The notes under the pieces were generated by a model. It was not told the DNA's origin, did not search any database, and saw only the letters and a list, made by a program, of their open reading frames with translations. 21,585 bases of DNA from a virus: IMG/VR virus record IMGVR_UViG_3300033153_005038, positions 1-21,585 of that record, one strand, 5' to 3'. Shown one piece after another: positions 2,125 to 16,880 of the stretch. Each line of letters starts with the position of its first letter. Position 1 is the first letter of the stretch. The position numbers and the translations under genes were made by a program.

Positions 2125-2404
2125 GATTGATGAAAGACCGATCACCAGTAGTTATTTGGATGCCAGTATCAGACTGAAGAACATAAATAAAAGAACGAAC
2201 AAATATTTCAAGGATGATGATACAAATGATTTTGGAATTGAAATACTTAAGGAATGCATTGGAATACAGATAGACTTGAACAGAATGATGATGGGATTCA
2301 CTGAAACCCTTAGGATTATGAATAACAATAATGAAGAAACTTATAATAAGGTTGAGAAGGAGATGAAAAGAGTGATCGATTCCATGCAACCTTCCAAGAA
2401 CTGA
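2117..2404 (+). CDS. Hypothetical helical protein, last gene of early operon
   Basis: ATG 2117 lies at the end of the second copy of the duplicated leader. The 95-residue product is helical and charged, with a Met/Asn-rich middle and a C-terminal amphipathic helix (YNKVEKEMKRVIDSMQ) that could form a short coiled coil. It is the last gene before 1.9 kb without genes. Function unknown. Confidence 0.6.
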   Translation: MNEIDERPITSSYLDASIRLKNINKRTNKYFKDDDTNDFGIEILKECIGIQIDLNRMMMGFTETLRIMNNNNEETYNKVEKEMKRVIDSMQPSKN

Positions 2405-2590
2405 GTTCCCCCAACCCAATCAAATACCCAAATCCTCTTTGCTTTTCAAAGAATCATAACCTCTGAACCTCACAGAATAAAAATAGATACTTGAATCCTT
2501 CACGGAATTACATTTAATCCTCATAACATCTTACAGATATAAAATCAAATAATACAAGAAGTAGGGAAGACAAGTTAAACACGGACTCGT
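2405..2590. other. G-poor, C-rich spacer before the RNA candidate
   Basis: This stretch is rich in CCC, CCT and CAA words and nearly lacks G, opposite in skew to the neighbouring genes. TATAAA at 2538-2543 could be a -10 element for transcription into 2591 onward, but no good -35 is seen. No gene is visible. Confidence 0.3.
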
Positions 2591-3574
2591 AAGTGTGATT
2601 GAATGTTTTTTGGTATTTGGGCTTTTTCAAAAAGAGTCAAGGAAATACGAGATTTTAAAAGGGGAAGTGCGGGTATATATCGAATATACGGAAGTGAATA
2701 AGTAAATAATAGAGTTTTGAGGTATTAGGAATGTTTTTTGAGGTTTTCTTCCCCGTTACCCACGTAGGACACGTTAGCAAGATAACCACGTGAATTACGT
2801 CATCGTGGCTGCCGAGGTGTGCGTGGCCAACGTGGAGCGCGCTATTTCCGGTGGATATAAGAAGGCCCAAGTTAATAGCAGAGGGAATTGGTGTAAAAGG
2901 TTGAGGATATTGTGGTTATAAAGACATAGAAATGGTAGATTTTGTTTTGGGCGTTTTCGAAGTCTGACGTTTTATGGCCCTAACAACATCATTCGTCCGA
3001 TATTGGGCTACCTGGAAGAACGCGGACAAATCGCCTTGCATAGCAGCTTTATAAGGAAGCATGGTTAGACTGAAGTAAGATATAAAAGGATAATATGAGG
3101 AGAAACGCCTATATACGGGTATATCATTAGGGCCAACAGGGAAAGAGAGATGTCTGAAATAAGGGATTGCCAGAGTCTATTAGAATCCTTTTTATTGGGA
3201 ATGGATCGCTGGCGCGTTAACCACGCTTCTTCCAAGGGTTATAAGATAGCCTATGTAGTGGGAGGTGGGATTTGGTAACGTCATATCTACTACAGCAGAC
3301 TTCCAGCCAGGCTTCTACGCGAACACTACGTGTTATAAGACTGCGAACGCGGCGGGGAAAGTGTGGGATAAGAGGGAAATAACGTTTATTCATCTGGCCC
3401 TACGTTACCCACGCTTCCCCGCACACCAACACTACCTCATTCCCCGCGAGGTTCGCAATATACGTGGATAGATGTAGTTATAAGACGGATGTCTGTTTTT
3501 GCATCATACCCAAAATCATCCTAATATAAAACTACTCACCTATCTTGCCACTTTCCCATTCAATCATCACACTT
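2591..3574 (+). ncRNA. Candidate large structured noncoding RNA (about 1 kb)
   Basis: No convincing gene is present in 2405-4324. Within it, 2591-3574 is visibly richer in G and C than the flanks, and the flanks (2405-2580, 3490-3600) are G-poor. Its ends are complementary: 2591-2605 pairs with 3557-3574 over 9 bp (AAGTGTGAT/ATCACACTT) plus 6 bp (TGAATG/CATTCA), with a 3-nt bulge. Internal helices seen by eye include 2661-2667/2748-2754, 2673-2678/2684-2689, 2786-2790/2804-2808, 2841-2846/2874-2879, 2975-2983/3127-3135 (9 bp), 3011-3020/3227-3237, 3161-3168/3184-3191, 3254-3259/3289-3294, 3342-3348/3451-3457 and a bulged 15-bp helix 3352-3367/3408-3422. Some cross or compete, so there may be pseudoknots. 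The strand is inferred from the genes. Giant RNAs such as GOLLD and ROOL occur in phages; I cannot assign a class. A degenerated gene region is the main alternative. Confidence 0.5.
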
Positions 3575-3659
3575 GCCAACCCTCTTGATTGTTTGTTGTA
3601 CCACAATTAATGCTACAATATAGTATGAATACAATATACAATTGGTAGTATACAAATAT

Positions 3660-4035
3660 AAACAGAGTCGATAGTTGCGTTATAGCAATAGATGCGTGTT
3701 AGCACACAACTAATCTCCATCATGTCCCGGAATGAGACATGCCTCATAATGAGATTCACACTTCCTCGATTTCTGGCACACTTTTTGATAGGAAATTCCA
3801 ATATCGGTAAATTCTACCTCTTAAAAAAGTAACTATTGCGTTTTTGGTCATTTTTTAACTTTGTCTACCGTTTATCCTTTATTTTTACCGTTCATCACAT
3901 AGGTAATTTTTACCGAGTGCTGAAATTGGTCTAAATTCTCATTATATTTTTTGGCACAGTATATGAAGGGGAAAAAGAATAGTTGCGTATTAGCAATAGT
4001 GAACGATTTTTTCGGTAATTCTTACCGATAATGCT
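3660..4035. promoter_or_regulatory. Cluster of palindromic operator- or iteron-like sites
   Basis: Two near-identical 21-mers, ATAGTTGCGTNNTAGCAATAG, lie at 3671-3691 and 3979-3999; each contains TTGC-N6-GCAA, and a partial copy (CTATTGCGT) is at 3833. Three CGGTAA/TTACCG palindromes lie at 3803-3820 (imperfect), 3901-3917 and 4011-4031, with half sites near 3865-3870 and 3882-3890. A further inverted repeat pairs 3721-3726 with 3736-3741. Such clusters are typical of a repressor-controlled region or a replication origin. No gene for the binding protein can be assigned. Confidence 0.5.
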
Positions 4036-4074
4036 TTATTAAGACTAAATAGTAATAGTGAAATAGTTCGATTT

Positions 4075-4215
4075 TAGCCTAAAAAAGCACTTTTTGATGA
4101 TTGTTTGATTTTAGCTTAAAAACAAGGTGTTTTTGGCTTAAAAAGGCATTTTTGCCTATTGACTATTAACTTTTAATTGTTATATTGAAAAGAAGAAAAG
4201 AAGTAATTGAAAAGA
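4075..4215. repeat. AT-rich repeats before the gene at 4325
   Basis: The phrase GATTTTAGCYTAAAAA occurs twice (about 4070 and 4108), with a third partial copy (TTTTTGGCTTAAAAA) near 4131. A 5-bp hairpin AGGCA-TTTT-TGCCT sits at 4145-4158. Around 4190-4215 GAAAAGAAGTAATTGA is repeated in tandem. Together with the palindromes just upstream this gives an easily melted, repeat-rich block that would fit an origin or a promoter region. Confidence 0.4.
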
Positions 4216-4324
4216 AGTAATTGAACAACAGCAGGAAATGGAAAGTTAATAATAGAAAGGTATTGAACAAAACAACCTGCACCCATTAAATAAATTTACT
4301 TACATAAAACAAGGAAATAGAAAA

Positions 4325-4783
4325 ATGAAAACAAGTGAAATGAAAAACAACACAAGTGGAAGCAATACATTGCACATAGACGGCAAAGAAATTGCACCAT
4401 TCAATAACAGCTTTAATATCAATACGGACAGCGAAAAAGAACCCGCAAAGATATTAAGTAATGTGCTGAACGCAGAACCTATCCTTAATCAAAGACGCAG
4501 ACAGCAATTCAGAGACAGCGCACCAAGTTACAGCGATTACGCTGTAAAGGAAGGGGAGAACAAAGACGAATTAGACATAAAAAAGATAAATGAAAATTTA
4601 TCCAAATTTTGTCTTAACGCCAGAGAACTAAAGGACAAGGCAACAAACAAGGGCACAGGCATATACTTAGTGCCTTTTAAGATTGCAAACCGTTCTTACT
4701 GCTGGACTTTGCTTAGTAGATTAAGCTTGCAACACCAACTACAACACGCCAAAGGCAACAAGGTAAAAGATAACAAATCATAA
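4325..4783 (+). CDS. Hypothetical protein with atypical codon use
   Basis: ATG 4325 follows AACAAGGAAATAG. The 152-residue product is hydrophilic, rich in Asn, Lys, Ser and Glu, with an RRRQQ cluster near residue 58 and a short hydrophobic stretch with YCWTLLSRLSL near residues 124-134. No domain is recognised. Its codons favour C-ending forms (AAC, GAC, TAC, AGC), while nearly all neighbours use AAT, GAT and TAT. It stands alone between the repeat region and a hairpin terminator. This suggests separate acquisition. The frame is open throughout and has a plausible ribosome site, but the low complexity keeps confidence moderate. Confidence 0.55.
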   Translation: MKTSEMKNNTSGSNTLHIDGKEIAPFNNSFNINTDSEKEPAKILSNVLNAEPILNQRRRQQFRDSAPSYSDYAVKEGENKDELDIKKINENLSKFCLNARELKDKATNKGTGIYLVPFKIANRSYCWTLLSRLSLQHQLQHAKGNKVKDNKS

Positions 4784-6704: not shown

Positions 6705-7343
6705 ATGACAAACCTAAATAAAGCACTTGCTTATCTTAGGGCAAGACCATATCGGAAAATCCGATATGAAAGTGTAGCACGGGCACTCGGGACAAGCTCA
6801 TCCACTGCGGATAGTCTTCTTATAGAACTTAATAATAAGGGTAAAATTCGACATATTGGAAGAGGATTTTATCGATATGAAGAAGATGGCCAGGCTAGAA
6901 CTAAACTTAAATATGAACTTCAAGAAAAACTTGAAAAATCTCCAAGCAGAGTCAAATATTTTGTTGGGATTGCTCGGATTACACCAGAAAAAGTGGATAA
7001 AGTTCCAAAACCTGGTGGAAGAGTTAAGTTTTCTTTTGCTGGACCATTCTTGAGAGACCATTTAGGATGGAAGCCTGGAGATCGAATCAACTTGAACTAC
7101 GATTTTAATCACCATCTCATTGTTTTGAAGATTGCAGATGAAGTTGAGTCAGCAAGAAAGGTTCATTTCAGAAACGGAACTTCCTCAAACTACAATGTAA
7201 CTTACCAACAAAATGATTGGGCTGGTTGGCCTCCATTTGGAAAGATAAAAGGCGTCCCTGATGAAGATGTATACACAGATACAGACGAAAAAGGCAATAT
7301 GTATGTTCTTTTGGGATTAAGAAGTTGGAGAAATGGCACATGA
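6705..7343 (+). CDS. Winged-helix DNA-binding regulator with possible AbrB-like domain
   Basis: ATG 6705 follows AAAGAAAGGTC. Residues 1-58 form a winged helix-turn-helix: helix LNKALAYLRARP, recognition part YESVARALGTSSSTADSLLIELNNKGKI and wing HIGRGFYRY. Residues about 105-143 (GRVKFSFAGPFLRDHLGWKPGD, then a hydrophobic strand) resemble a SpoVT/AbrB-type swapped-hairpin domain, with its l-G-w-x-x-G-D turn, although this likeness is weak. The C-terminus is Trp/Gly-rich. It is probably a transcription factor controlling its own promoter through the palindrome 36 bases upstream of its start. A stable inverted repeat lies inside its first codons. Confidence 0.65.
   Translation: MTNLNKALAYLRARPYRKIRYESVARALGTSSSTADSLLIELNNKGKIRHIGRGFYRYEEDGQARTKLKYELQEKLEKSPSRVKYFVGIARITPEKVDKVPKPGGRVKFSFAGPFLRDHLGWKPGDRINLNYDFNHHLIVLKIADEVESARKVHFRNGTSSNYNVTYQQNDWAGWPPFGKIKGVPDEDVYTDTDEKGNMYVLLGLRSWRNGT
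6748..6768. repeat. Perfect inverted repeat inside regulator coding start
   Basis: CATATCGGA and TCCGATATG pair over 9 bp around AAA, at codons 15-22 of the regulator gene. A second, shorter stem (CTTGC 6726-6730 / GCAAG 6741-6745) lies just upstream. It could be an internal operator or an mRNA hairpin. Confidence 0.6.
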
Positions 7344-13305: not shown

Positions 13306-14034
13306 ATGGATTCATTATCAAGCACATCAAATAAGTCAGCAATTCAAAAACGAATATCTAATTTTTTAACTGCTGCAAAGAAAGTTGAATCTTTAGGAGC
13401 TTGTCAAATTCTTGAAAAACCGGAGATTAGTGAGAATTGGTTAGTTACTTCAGATGGAACTTTTATTCGTAAAATCTGTGGACATCGGTCTTCTAAAGGA
13501 CCATGTTTATTATTTCCAGGTTGGGGAACAAATCATATTGGTAAGGGGAAATGTCGACATCATGGTAGAAGTCTTTTATATAATCCACAATTAAATGCTC
13601 TTGAAGGGATTCCAGTTAGATTTGGAGAATTATTAGCGCATGTTGATAACGTTGAAGAAGGAACTTTACTTAATGTAGATCATGAAATTAAATTTCTTTA
13701 TGCATTACAGCAATATGTCTTAACAATGGCTACAGACTTGAATTTACAGCAGGTTGATGCATTACAAGAATTAACAATGAATATAGTTAAAACTAAGTCC
13801 ATTAAGAATAAGATTCAGAAGGAAATGAGATTAGATGCTTCAGCAGTAAAAGATTTTGTTAAAAATATTTTCGATATTGTTGTTCAAACAGTACCAGGCC
13901 CAGAAGCACAACGTATATTAAATGATATTATGAATAAGGTTATTGTTCCATATAAGAATAAACAAAGAATAACCAATGCACGTTATGATTTTGAGGAGAC
14001 TATTAAGAAAACTCTTGAAAAGGCGAAATCATGA
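13306..14034 (+). CDS. terS: Small terminase-like protein with Cys/His motif
   Basis: ATG 13306 follows AACAAAAGGAAAGT. Residues 56-88 carry ICGHRSSKGPC, then PGWGTNHIGKGKC and RHHG. This matches the C...C-x(n)-G-T-x-H-x-G-x-G-x-C-x-x-H-G motif found in phage proteins encoded just before the large terminase and usually annotated as small subunits; the final Gly of the common HGG is Arg here. The C-terminal half is helical and could oligomerise. Small terminases recognise the genome end and regulate the motor. Its stop overlaps the ATPase gene (ATGA at 14031-14034), which supports this assignment. A function outside packaging cannot be excluded. Confidence 0.7.
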   Translation: MDSLSSTSNKSAIQKRISNFLTAAKKVESLGACQILEKPEISENWLVTSDGTFIRKICGHRSSKGPCLLFPGWGTNHIGKGKCRHHGRSLLYNPQLNALEGIPVRFGELLAHVDNVEEGTLLNVDHEIKFLYALQQYVLTMATDLNLQQVDALQELTMNIVKTKSIKNKIQKEMRLDASAVKDFVKNIFDIVVQTVPGPEAQRILNDIMNKVIVPYKNKQRITNARYDFEETIKKTLEKAKS

Positions 14035-15113
14035 GTGACTTTATAAATGACCAAAATTCTGCTGATTCATTGATGCGGTATGCTGAAAACACTCTTAAAG
14101 AAATGCAAAAAAAGCAAACTGGTTCGAGTTCTGAATGGACAGAGGGTGAGGCTGCTGCTCAATCAAGAGTGGATATTGAAACTTTAATAAGAGACCCGTT
14201 TTATTTAGGTCTTGGAGATAAAGTATATCAAGGAGTTTTAGAAGATATTGTAGAATTATTTGAAGAACGTAAAAAACGACAAGTAAACCTTGCTATTTTT
14301 ATGGAGGGAATCGGAGCTGGGAAAACTTTAAAGGCATCAGTTATCCAGTGGTTACTGTGGTTTGAACTCACTTGTCTATGGCCAAATCCTCAAGACTATT
14401 TTGATTTAGTTCCAAATTCAGTAATTGCTCTTATTAATCTTAATAGGACAGAAAAACAATCTAAGAAGGTAACATTTGCTGAGGTTTATCCAAGGTTTCA
14501 ATGTCCTTTTAATATGCAATACTTTCCCCCTTCTGATAAATATACTACTGAAATACGAATTACAAGAAATAACACAACTGTTTTTCCTGGTACATCTTCT
14601 GCCCTCTCGGCCTTAGGATATAATTTATATGGTGGAACAATTGATGAGGCAGCTTTTTTAGAGGTCATTGATGATTCTACAAAAACTTATGATGGAAAGT
14701 TTGATGCAGCGGAGGAGATGTACCATGCTATTACTAATAGAATGATATCAAGATTTTTAAGAGAAGGAAAATTGCCTGGTTTATTGAGTATGATTTCTTC
14801 ATCTAATTTTCCTGATGATTTTATGCATAAACAGATTGAATATGCTGCTAGGGTTGAAGAAGAATCAGAAAAGAATGGGACTCTAAATGATTCTAATATA
14901 TTTTGGAGAAGAAGATCCACTTGGGAAGCTAAGGGACCTAAATTTTTTCCTGAAAATGAGTTCTTTTATATTGATACTGAAAATGCTGAAATTTTAGAAC
15001 ATTGGAAAGTGAAAGAGTTCTTAGATTCAATAAAAGATCATTATTTTCCATTGAAAATAGACCCAGAGACATTAATTAATCTTGCTCAATTTATGTATAA
15101 GGAGGTGGCGTAA
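14031..15113 (+). CDS. terL: Large terminase, ATPase domain only
   Basis: ATG 14031 overlaps the small terminase stop. The 360-residue protein has a Walker A-like loop GIGAGKT (residues 93-99), a Walker B with catalytic acid, GGTIDEAAF (201-209, D205-E206), and a coupling motif SMISSSNFPDDF (253-264). It then reads STWEAKGPKFF (296-306), as in large terminases. No RNase H-like nuclease follows in the frame; it stops after about 50 more residues. The nuclease is encoded separately from 15885. The protein should power DNA translocation into the prohead and needs the nuclease to cut DNA. The stop (TAA 15111-15113) overlaps the next start. Confidence 0.85.
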   Translation: MSDFINDQNSADSLMRYAENTLKEMQKKQTGSSSEWTEGEAAAQSRVDIETLIRDPFYLGLGDKVYQGVLEDIVELFEERKKRQVNLAIFMEGIGAGKTLKASVIQWLLWFELTCLWPNPQDYFDLVPNSVIALINLNRTEKQSKKVTFAEVYPRFQCPFNMQYFPPSDKYTTEIRITRNNTTVFPGTSSALSALGYNLYGGTIDEAAFLEVIDDSTKTYDGKFDAAEEMYHAITNRMISRFLREGKLPGLLSMISSSNFPDDFMHKQIEYAARVEEESEKNGTLNDSNIFWRRRSTWEAKGPKFFPENEFFYIDTENAEILEHWKVKEFLDSIKDHYFPLKIDPETLINLAQFMYKEVA

Positions 15114-15375: not shown

Positions 15376-15885
15376 ATGATTTATTGGCAAATAGTTGATT
15401 TAGAAACAACAGGATTAAGTCCTAATAATGAAGAAATTGCTGAGTTGGCTTTAATTACTTGTGTGAATACGCAAATAATTGGTATCCATCATCAATTTTA
15501 TCAGATAAGTAAAATGGGTGAAAAGGCAGGACAAGTAAATGGATTATCAATTAAACAATTGGATGGTTGGATTAGGTTTTCTTCAAATGAAAATCTAACA
15601 TTATTAAGAAGTTTAATAAAGCATCCTCTTTTTGCTCATAATGCTCCTTTTGATGCAGGTTTTTTAATTGCTCAAAACGTTATAAAAGATAGTTATCCGG
15701 TTATTGATACTGTTAAACTTTGTAAAAAGAGTAATAAAAAATTGGAAAATAACAAATTACAAACTTGGGTAAATCATTATAAATTATCAAACGGAGTTGC
15801 GCATACAGCACTGAACGATGCATTTAGTCTATATAGATTAATTGTGTTAATGGGATGGCAAATATATGCAAAGGTTGGGGTATAA
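15376..15885 (+). CDS. DEDDh 3'-5' exonuclease (DnaQ-like)
   Basis: The 169-residue protein has all three exonuclease motifs: Exo I VDLETTG (D8, E10), Exo II AHNAPFDAGFL (D93) and Exo III HTALNDA (H143, D148). This is the DEDDh type, which uses two metal ions to remove 3' nucleotides from DNA or RNA. No polymerase or other domain is fused. It lies inside the packaging operon between the terminase halves, and its stop overlaps the nuclease start (TAATG at 15883-15887). It may trim DNA ends or act in replication or nucleotide scavenging; the location alone does not decide this. Confidence 0.85.
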   Translation: MIYWQIVDLETTGLSPNNEEIAELALITCVNTQIIGIHHQFYQISKMGEKAGQVNGLSIKQLDGWIRFSSNENLTLLRSLIKHPLFAHNAPFDAGFLIAQNVIKDSYPVIDTVKLCKKSNKKLENNKLQTWVNHYKLSNGVAHTALNDAFSLYRLIVLMGWQIYAKVGV

Positions 15886-16880
15886 TGATAATTAAAGTTC
15901 CATTATCATTAATGTCTGCTGCAAAAGGTGATATAGAGAACTTCATCCGTGACATCGCAAACGTAACAGAAACAGGAACACGCCCTTTTATACGAAGGCG
16001 AAAAAAGATTCGCCAATCTATTAAAGAATATTTAAACCCATTCAATCCCTTAACTAGAACTTTTGATGCGGATTATAGATGTCAAGATAATTACTTACGT
16101 TACCTACATATAGATCTTGCACATACACGAGATGCAGTGGGTATTGGTTGTTCGCATGTCCCAAGATTTGTTGAGCGTGAAGAATTAGATACTTTTACTA
16201 AAGAAATACAAAGAGTAATGCTTCCTATAATAAAGGTTGATTTTTGGGGTAAAATTCTTGCATCGAAAAGAGAAGAAATAATTTTAAGTGATATTAGAGA
16301 TATTGTTTATGACCTATCCCGCAGAGGGTTTTATTTTGGATTGATTACTTTTGACAGGTTTCAGTCAATTGAATCAGTTCAGACTTTAAGACGTTATGGT
16401 TATATAGCAGGTCATCATTCTGTTGACAGGACTTCAAGTTCACTTATATTAGATATTGAAGGTAAAATAGATATAGGATATTCAAAAGTTTCAACTGAAG
16501 GTAATTATAATGCTACTCATGTTGCTTTAAGAGATGTTTTATATGATGATAGACTTGAAGTTCCAAAGTCAACTAATCATTATGAAACAGATTGGTTTGT
16601 TTATGAATCAGAGAATGCTCAATATACAAAGGCGGGTAAAATTGATCATCCCCCTACTGGGTCTATTGATGTCGAGCAAGGAGTTGCTGCATCGGTATTT
16701 CACGCTATTAACAATGAACACATGATGGTTGAAACAGAAGCTGAACGGTCAAGACGTGAAGTAGAGGATTCATTTTATGTCACCGCCGAAGAAAATATTG
16801 ATAAAATACTATTAACAAATAAATTAGAAGAAATTGAATTGCCCCGAGATCCTCGCAGTATTGAAGGGGACTATTTTTAA
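15885..16880 (+). CDS. terL: Large terminase, nuclease domain only
   Basis: ATG 15885 overlaps the exonuclease stop. The 331-residue protein starts MIIKVPLSLM...IENFIRDIANV, which fits the VP...F...LRDIAG segment that normally joins the ATPase to the nuclease. It carries the RNase H-like acidic residues D77 (HIDLAHTRDAVGIG), D157 (LITFDRFQS) and D262 (HPPTGSIDVEQGVAASV). These are expected to bind metal and cut the concatemer at packaging start and end. No Walker motifs are present. With the ATPase it adds to about 690 residues, near a full large terminase. The proteins presumably assemble non-covalently. The portal gene follows after 12 bases. Confidence 0.85.
   Translation: MIIKVPLSLMSAAKGDIENFIRDIANVTETGTRPFIRRRKKIRQSIKEYLNPFNPLTRTFDADYRCQDNYLRYLHIDLAHTRDAVGIGCSHVPRFVEREELDTFTKEIQRVMLPIIKVDFWGKILASKREEIILSDIRDIVYDLSRRGFYFGLITFDRFQSIESVQTLRRYGYIAGHHSVDRTSSSLILDIEGKIDIGYSKVSTEGNYNATHVALRDVLYDDRLEVPKSTNHYETDWFVYESENAQYTKAGKIDHPPTGSIDVEQGVAASVFHAINNEHMMVETEAERSRREVEDSFYVTAEENIDKILLTNKLEEIELPRDPRSIEGDYF

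Follow-up and report, generated by a model that had tools for sequence, protein, structure and literature searches.

The phage and its non-coding stretch

The window analyzed here is the whole of a single IMG/VR virus record (IMGVR_UViG_3300033153_005038), a stretch of 21,585 bases with 31.9% GC, whose genes lie on the + strand and, in the list of open reading frames, mostly abut one another. PHROGs searches identified a portal protein gene and a tail-fiber-like gene, and the terminase was recognized via tblastn against phage records. In the 100-aa product of the gene at 1342-1644, Pfam recognizes a SEC-C motif at the C-terminal end (E 4.5e-6). The open-reading-frame list places the end of one gene at 2404 and the start of the next at 4325, with no convincing gene between them (Table 1).

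All six frames of 2405-3700 are interrupted by 18-29 stops each, and their translations found no match in Pfam or PHROGs at E<=0.1. The list of open frames and these six-frame searches thus bear out the first-pass annotation, which had described about 1 kb without a convincing gene. It had further described this region as more GC-rich than its flanks, and this too stands: the GC fraction of 2750-3500 is 0.459 versus a mean of 0.312 (31.2%; sd 0.024, maximum 0.379) in 771 other 751-nt windows of the phage, placing it 6 sd above that mean. The GC-rich part begins some 150 nt inward from the left end of the end-to-end helix described below, and the non-coding stretch runs past that helix on both sides. 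The adjacent segment 3578-4324 is AT-rich, likewise non-coding and marked by several short direct repeats, including two copies of ATAGTTGCGTTATAGCAATAG, three copies of GATTTTAGCYTAAAAA and several of TTACCG; it is possibly an origin or control region.

Table 1. Coordinates of features in the non-coding stretch and of intein-bearing genes in relatives (strand "." where none applies)
Feature	Position	Strand	Remarks
Non-coding stretch, 1.9 kb	2405-4324	.	between + strand genes; open-reading-frame list and six-frame searches
GC-rich island	2750-3500	.	45.9% GC in a 31% GC phage
End-to-end helix, 5' arm	2589-2605	+	pairs with the 3' arm
End-to-end helix, 3' arm	3557-3576	+	contains a 3-nt bulge
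Nested stem, 5' arm	2723-2730	+	with 3519-3526, inside the end-to-end helix
Nested stem, 3' arm	3519-3526	+	with 2723-2730
9-bp stem, 5' arm	2975-2983	+	with 3127-3135; pair probability 0.86
9-bp stem, 3' arm	3127-3135	+	with 2975-2983
Most stable local domain	3342-3457	+	outer stem 3342-3348/3451-3457
Block similar to L191 1602-1690 (G013)	3337-3420	+	nhmmer
TATAAG, five copies	2856, 3050, 3240, 3334, 3479 (2856-3484)	+	0.5 expected
TTA(A/C)CCACG, three copies	2756, 3217, 3405 (2756-3413)	+	0.015 expected
Intein-bearing terminase genes of relatives	L145 3338-6079 and 6598-8010; L006 2-2176; L008 717-3035; L117 13132-15264		

Two short motifs recur in the region in a single orientation (Table 1), the - strand carrying neither TATAAG nor TTA(A/C)CCACG. 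None of 1000 shuffles reached the count of either, figures that are descriptive since the motifs were chosen after looking at the sequence. TATAAG at first suggested itself as a signature of non-coding DNA across the clade, a suggestion not borne out when all the clade's non-coding DNA is considered. Pattern scans of viral contigs with motifs of the region gave no convincing relative; two sets of matches were without further similarity to the region, and those of a third lay almost all within long open frames and are attributable to chance. The region shows no excess of promoters, and no intrinsic terminator was found in it. A group II intron, considered on account of a GUGCG at about 2667, was rejected, there being no match to domain V or other Rfam intron models.

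Complementarity and predicted folding

The two ends of the region are complementary. As the first-pass annotation had claimed, 2591-2605 pairs with 3557-3574 in a helix of 15 Watson-Crick pairs with one 3-nt bulge; adding a U-G pair and a G-C pair takes this helix to 2589/3576. A helix of 15 such pairs with one bulge and a span of at least 800 nt was matched in 1 of 200 shuffles; with G-U pairs allowed, the helix counts 17 pairs and was matched in 8 of 200. On the + strand, in its genomic context, the predicted pair probability of this helix is about 0.62-0.65, and on the - strand other pairings displace it. The local helices named in the same annotation are also present, namely the 9-bp stem, the outer stem of the most stable domain and, within the latter, the helix 3352-3367/3408-3422, which is made up of 8 and 7 bp (3352-3359/3415-3422 and 3361-3367/3408-3414) with one bulged A.

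Perfect stems of at least 8 bp number 16 in the region versus 6.7 +/- 2.8 in dinucleotide shuffles, a 2.4-fold excess reached by none of 40 shuffles; one of 41 other 1-kb windows shows a higher excess (z 3.1 here). When stems are scored as sets compatible with one another, the best set is ordinary (z 0.95). The complementarity is genuine and exceeds chance by a modest margin, and the locus is unusual as a non-coding island that is rich in GC and has ends complementary to each other.

The total folding energy of 2580-3577 (998 nt) gave a z of -2.25 with 20 shuffles and of -1.4 with 60, of which 7 folded as well; the corresponding values for the - strand are z -1.67 and 3 of 60. The comparison with shuffled sequence proposed in the first-pass annotation thus came out weakly in favor of the native sequence and close to failing. 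Over 2405-3800 the minimum free energy is -354.6 kcal/mol on the + strand versus -357.2 kcal/mol on the - strand; the two strands fold equally well, and folding therefore does not indicate the strand. Local 150-nt windows inside the region fold in an ordinary manner on either strand, with one domain, 3318-3467, standing out (z -3.3, with 1 of 200 shuffles as good).

Relatives of the phage and known RNA families

A DNA search of 50,697 phage and 72,556 plasmid records returned nothing relevant to the region. Relatives of the phage were collected through terminase and portal alignments; these include L006 (terminase 70%), which is just 7 kb long, G008 and G009 (portal 53%; 80 and 34 kb, respectively), G002 (105 kb), G013 (39 kb) and others. 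The phage has no assigned host, because a scan of about 85,000 prokaryote genomes with the portal alignment yielded no relatives of the phage and a scan of genome contigs with a motif compatible with G013 yielded no matches. In this clade two genes encode the large terminase, one half each, and a DEDDh (DnaQ-like) exonuclease gene lies between them (14031-15113, 15376-15885 and 15855-16880 in the phage; Pfam RNase_T for the exonuclease, E 3.5e-17). This layout is kept across the clade, being listed for L006, L007, L008, L010, L117, L145 and G008. Inteins also interrupt the terminase genes of the clade (Table 1), their insertion point apparently being the Walker A motif; in L145 there are two in the first terminase half and one in the second.

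A direct standard search of these relatives found no alignable copy of the region. A sensitive nhmmer search, which covered 2.5 Mb of fetched loci and later 3.9 Mb, recovered one block of roughly 85 nt in G013 with an E of 0.025 and 0.038, respectively, a match equaled by none of 38 block-shuffled queries (best 0.069). The block sits on the same strand inside a 787-bp non-coding gap; the counterpart of the phage gene 13306-14034 follows about 11.8 kb downstream, the corresponding distance being about 10 kb in the phage, where this gene lies just upstream of the terminase. Its alignment is ungapped over the first 29 nt and thereafter shows gaps that break the reading frame. Judged by sequence similarity, 3337-3420 is likely homologous to this block. 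A sequence-only model of 3336-3462 found the block with 21.4 bits; two structure models, R1 (the compact helix) and R2 (the minimum-energy structure), missed it on the + strand even when run unfiltered. In about 0.8 and 1.1 Mb of clade sequence, neither model gave any other match that was convincing. G013 retains one strand of the helix, and the partner strand has drifted without clear compensation; by eye, an inspection and not a formal test, the block can form a similar nested hairpin. As it matches as sequence and not under R1 or R2, the flagship helix is without support from covariation, a check that rested on this one candidate homolog. A match of G025 to the gap in G013 lies inside a coding gene and was dismissed as chance.

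Several relatives have non-coding elements of their own. In G013, successive genes are preceded by a leader-like repeat (TGAATAACAAGGGAAAATTTGTTTGTAAATTTA) in three diverged copies (L191 1716-1782, 2479-2545 and 3731-3797). G002 has a 1.4-kb non-coding region (L007 1935-3400) that contains repeats of GATATAAGGAAACAGACC, six copies of ACAGACC and TGTATAACAA in tandem and has a strong terminator-like hairpin at its end. G010 carries tRNA-like RNAs with acceptor-like stems (L188 4612-4682, 4729-4806, 4848-4980 and about 6868-7022), three of them with a T-arm-like sequence, which were missed by ARAGORN and the Rfam tRNA model; the one at 4612-4682 folds with z -3.8. In G008, the nearest long relative, the non-coding segment L182 9080-9250 folds better than shuffles (z about -2.5) and has no Rfam match above the gathering score. 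Rfam scans of the relatives found nothing relevant.

Scanning the whole phage record with Rfam 15 at the gathering score gave no match, and in 2400-3800 neither GOLLD, ROOL, OLE and HEARO nor any other family of large RNAs was detected at E<=10; ARAGORN found no tRNA in the whole record. The first-pass idea that the region belongs to a class of this kind is accordingly not upheld by the covariance-model scan. GOLLD and ROOL are phage RNAs often found near tRNA islands, GOLLD often exceeding 800 nt, and both build RNA-only cages of unknown function (PMC12286853). Like GOLLD, the region is a large non-coding one in a phage with many predicted helices; it differs in having no Rfam match and no tRNA in the record, and whereas GOLLD is marked by a conserved 3' domain, the likeness here is one of size, setting and predicted helices. 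It shares with ROOL its phage origin, large size and complementary ends and is here richer in GC than its surroundings, but is without an Rfam match or a tRNA island, and ROOL has conserved kissing-loop elements. OLE and HEARO resemble it as large bacterial RNAs with complex folds; they differ in that neither gives a match at the above threshold and no associated protein gene was found among the flanking genes searched.

A possible large RNA or control region

A GC-rich island in an AT-rich genome is the expected signature of a structured RNA. This island, together with the non-coding frames, the excess of stems, the closing helix, the 3318-3467 domain, the one-strand motifs and the block that recurs in a comparable position in G013, leads us to propose that 2589-3576 encodes a large structured non-coding RNA, an orphan read from the + strand of the phage. 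This giant-RNA reading is plausible, and we hold it tentatively, at somewhat less than even chances. It is weakened by the folding energy near that of shuffled sequence, the ordinary local windows, the equally good folding of the - strand, the lack of an excess of compatible stems, the failure of the structure models to find the G013 block, the lack of a promoter excess or terminator and the absence of a homolog in the phage and plasmid records searched.

The main rival is that 2405-4324 acts at the level of DNA, as a replication origin, a packaging region or a region of early regulation in which protein-binding sites are repeated and there is no large folded RNA, which we regard as rather unlikely but worth serious weight. 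Like phage replication and regulatory control regions, it separates blocks of genes, is long and non-coding and contains short motifs that repeat; consistent with this are the direct repeats of 3578-4324, the recurrence of both motifs in one orientation, the near-shuffled folding energy and the repeat-rich non-coding regions that relatives have of their own, which do not align with that of the phage. However, the motifs of the GC-rich part are irregularly spaced, non-coding DNA of the clade shows no clear enrichment of TATAAG, and an AT-rich origin would not be expected to show GC enrichment or a long-range inverted repeat at its edges. That same inverted repeat, flanking an island of different composition with no protein gene inside, could instead mark a non-autonomous mobile element that lacks a transposase gene; the foreign, GC-richer DNA would measure about 990 bp and have 2589-2605 and 3557-3576 as its imperfect terminal inverted repeats. 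Against this improbable origin, inspection showed no target-site duplication, searches gave no second copy in the phage, the phage and plasmid records or the relatives, the GC-rich part starts well inside the left repeat, and part of the element may be common to G013 at a similar place. Hardly more probable is that the region is a decayed protein gene, or else neutral sequence of foreign origin, its complementarity having arisen by chance: the near-shuffled total folding energy would fit it, as would two short open frames (3265-3471 on the + strand, 68 aa; 2655-2870 on the - strand, 71 aa) and the single reading frame kept in common over the ungapped start of the G013 alignment, but stops occur at about random density in every frame, protein-family matches are lacking, the later alignment gaps break the frame, and a decayed gene should be AT-rich like the genes of the phage. 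The mobile-element and the decayed or neutral readings both lack positive evidence.

Under the large-RNA reading, we infer that 2589-3576 is transcribed and folded. The RNA would be read out of a long + strand transcript; its paired ends would close a multi-domain molecule, with 3342-3457 as the most stable domain anchoring it and UAUAAG and UUA(A/C)CCACG as putative recurrent structural or protein-binding modules. During infection it might act as a regulator or a scaffold, in the manner of GOLLD or ROOL though belonging to neither family. The further suggestion of a new class, already raised in the first-pass annotation, gains from the GC island, the stem excess, the closing helix and the one-strand motifs and loses from the near-shuffled folding and the missing strand preference. 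That this little-known split-terminase clade has a class of giant phage RNAs not described before, about 1 kb long, with an end-to-end helix and repeated UAUAAG and UUA(A/C)CCACG modules, is a doubtful proposition.

To our knowledge, few phage-encoded RNAs above 0.5 kb are known. Should the region prove to be a control region instead, it would mean that a GC island and long-range complementarity alone do not identify a giant RNA. If the large-RNA reading is true, the shared features of such RNAs could be compared with the help of a further class, independent of GOLLD and ROOL and carried by an unrelated clade of phages.
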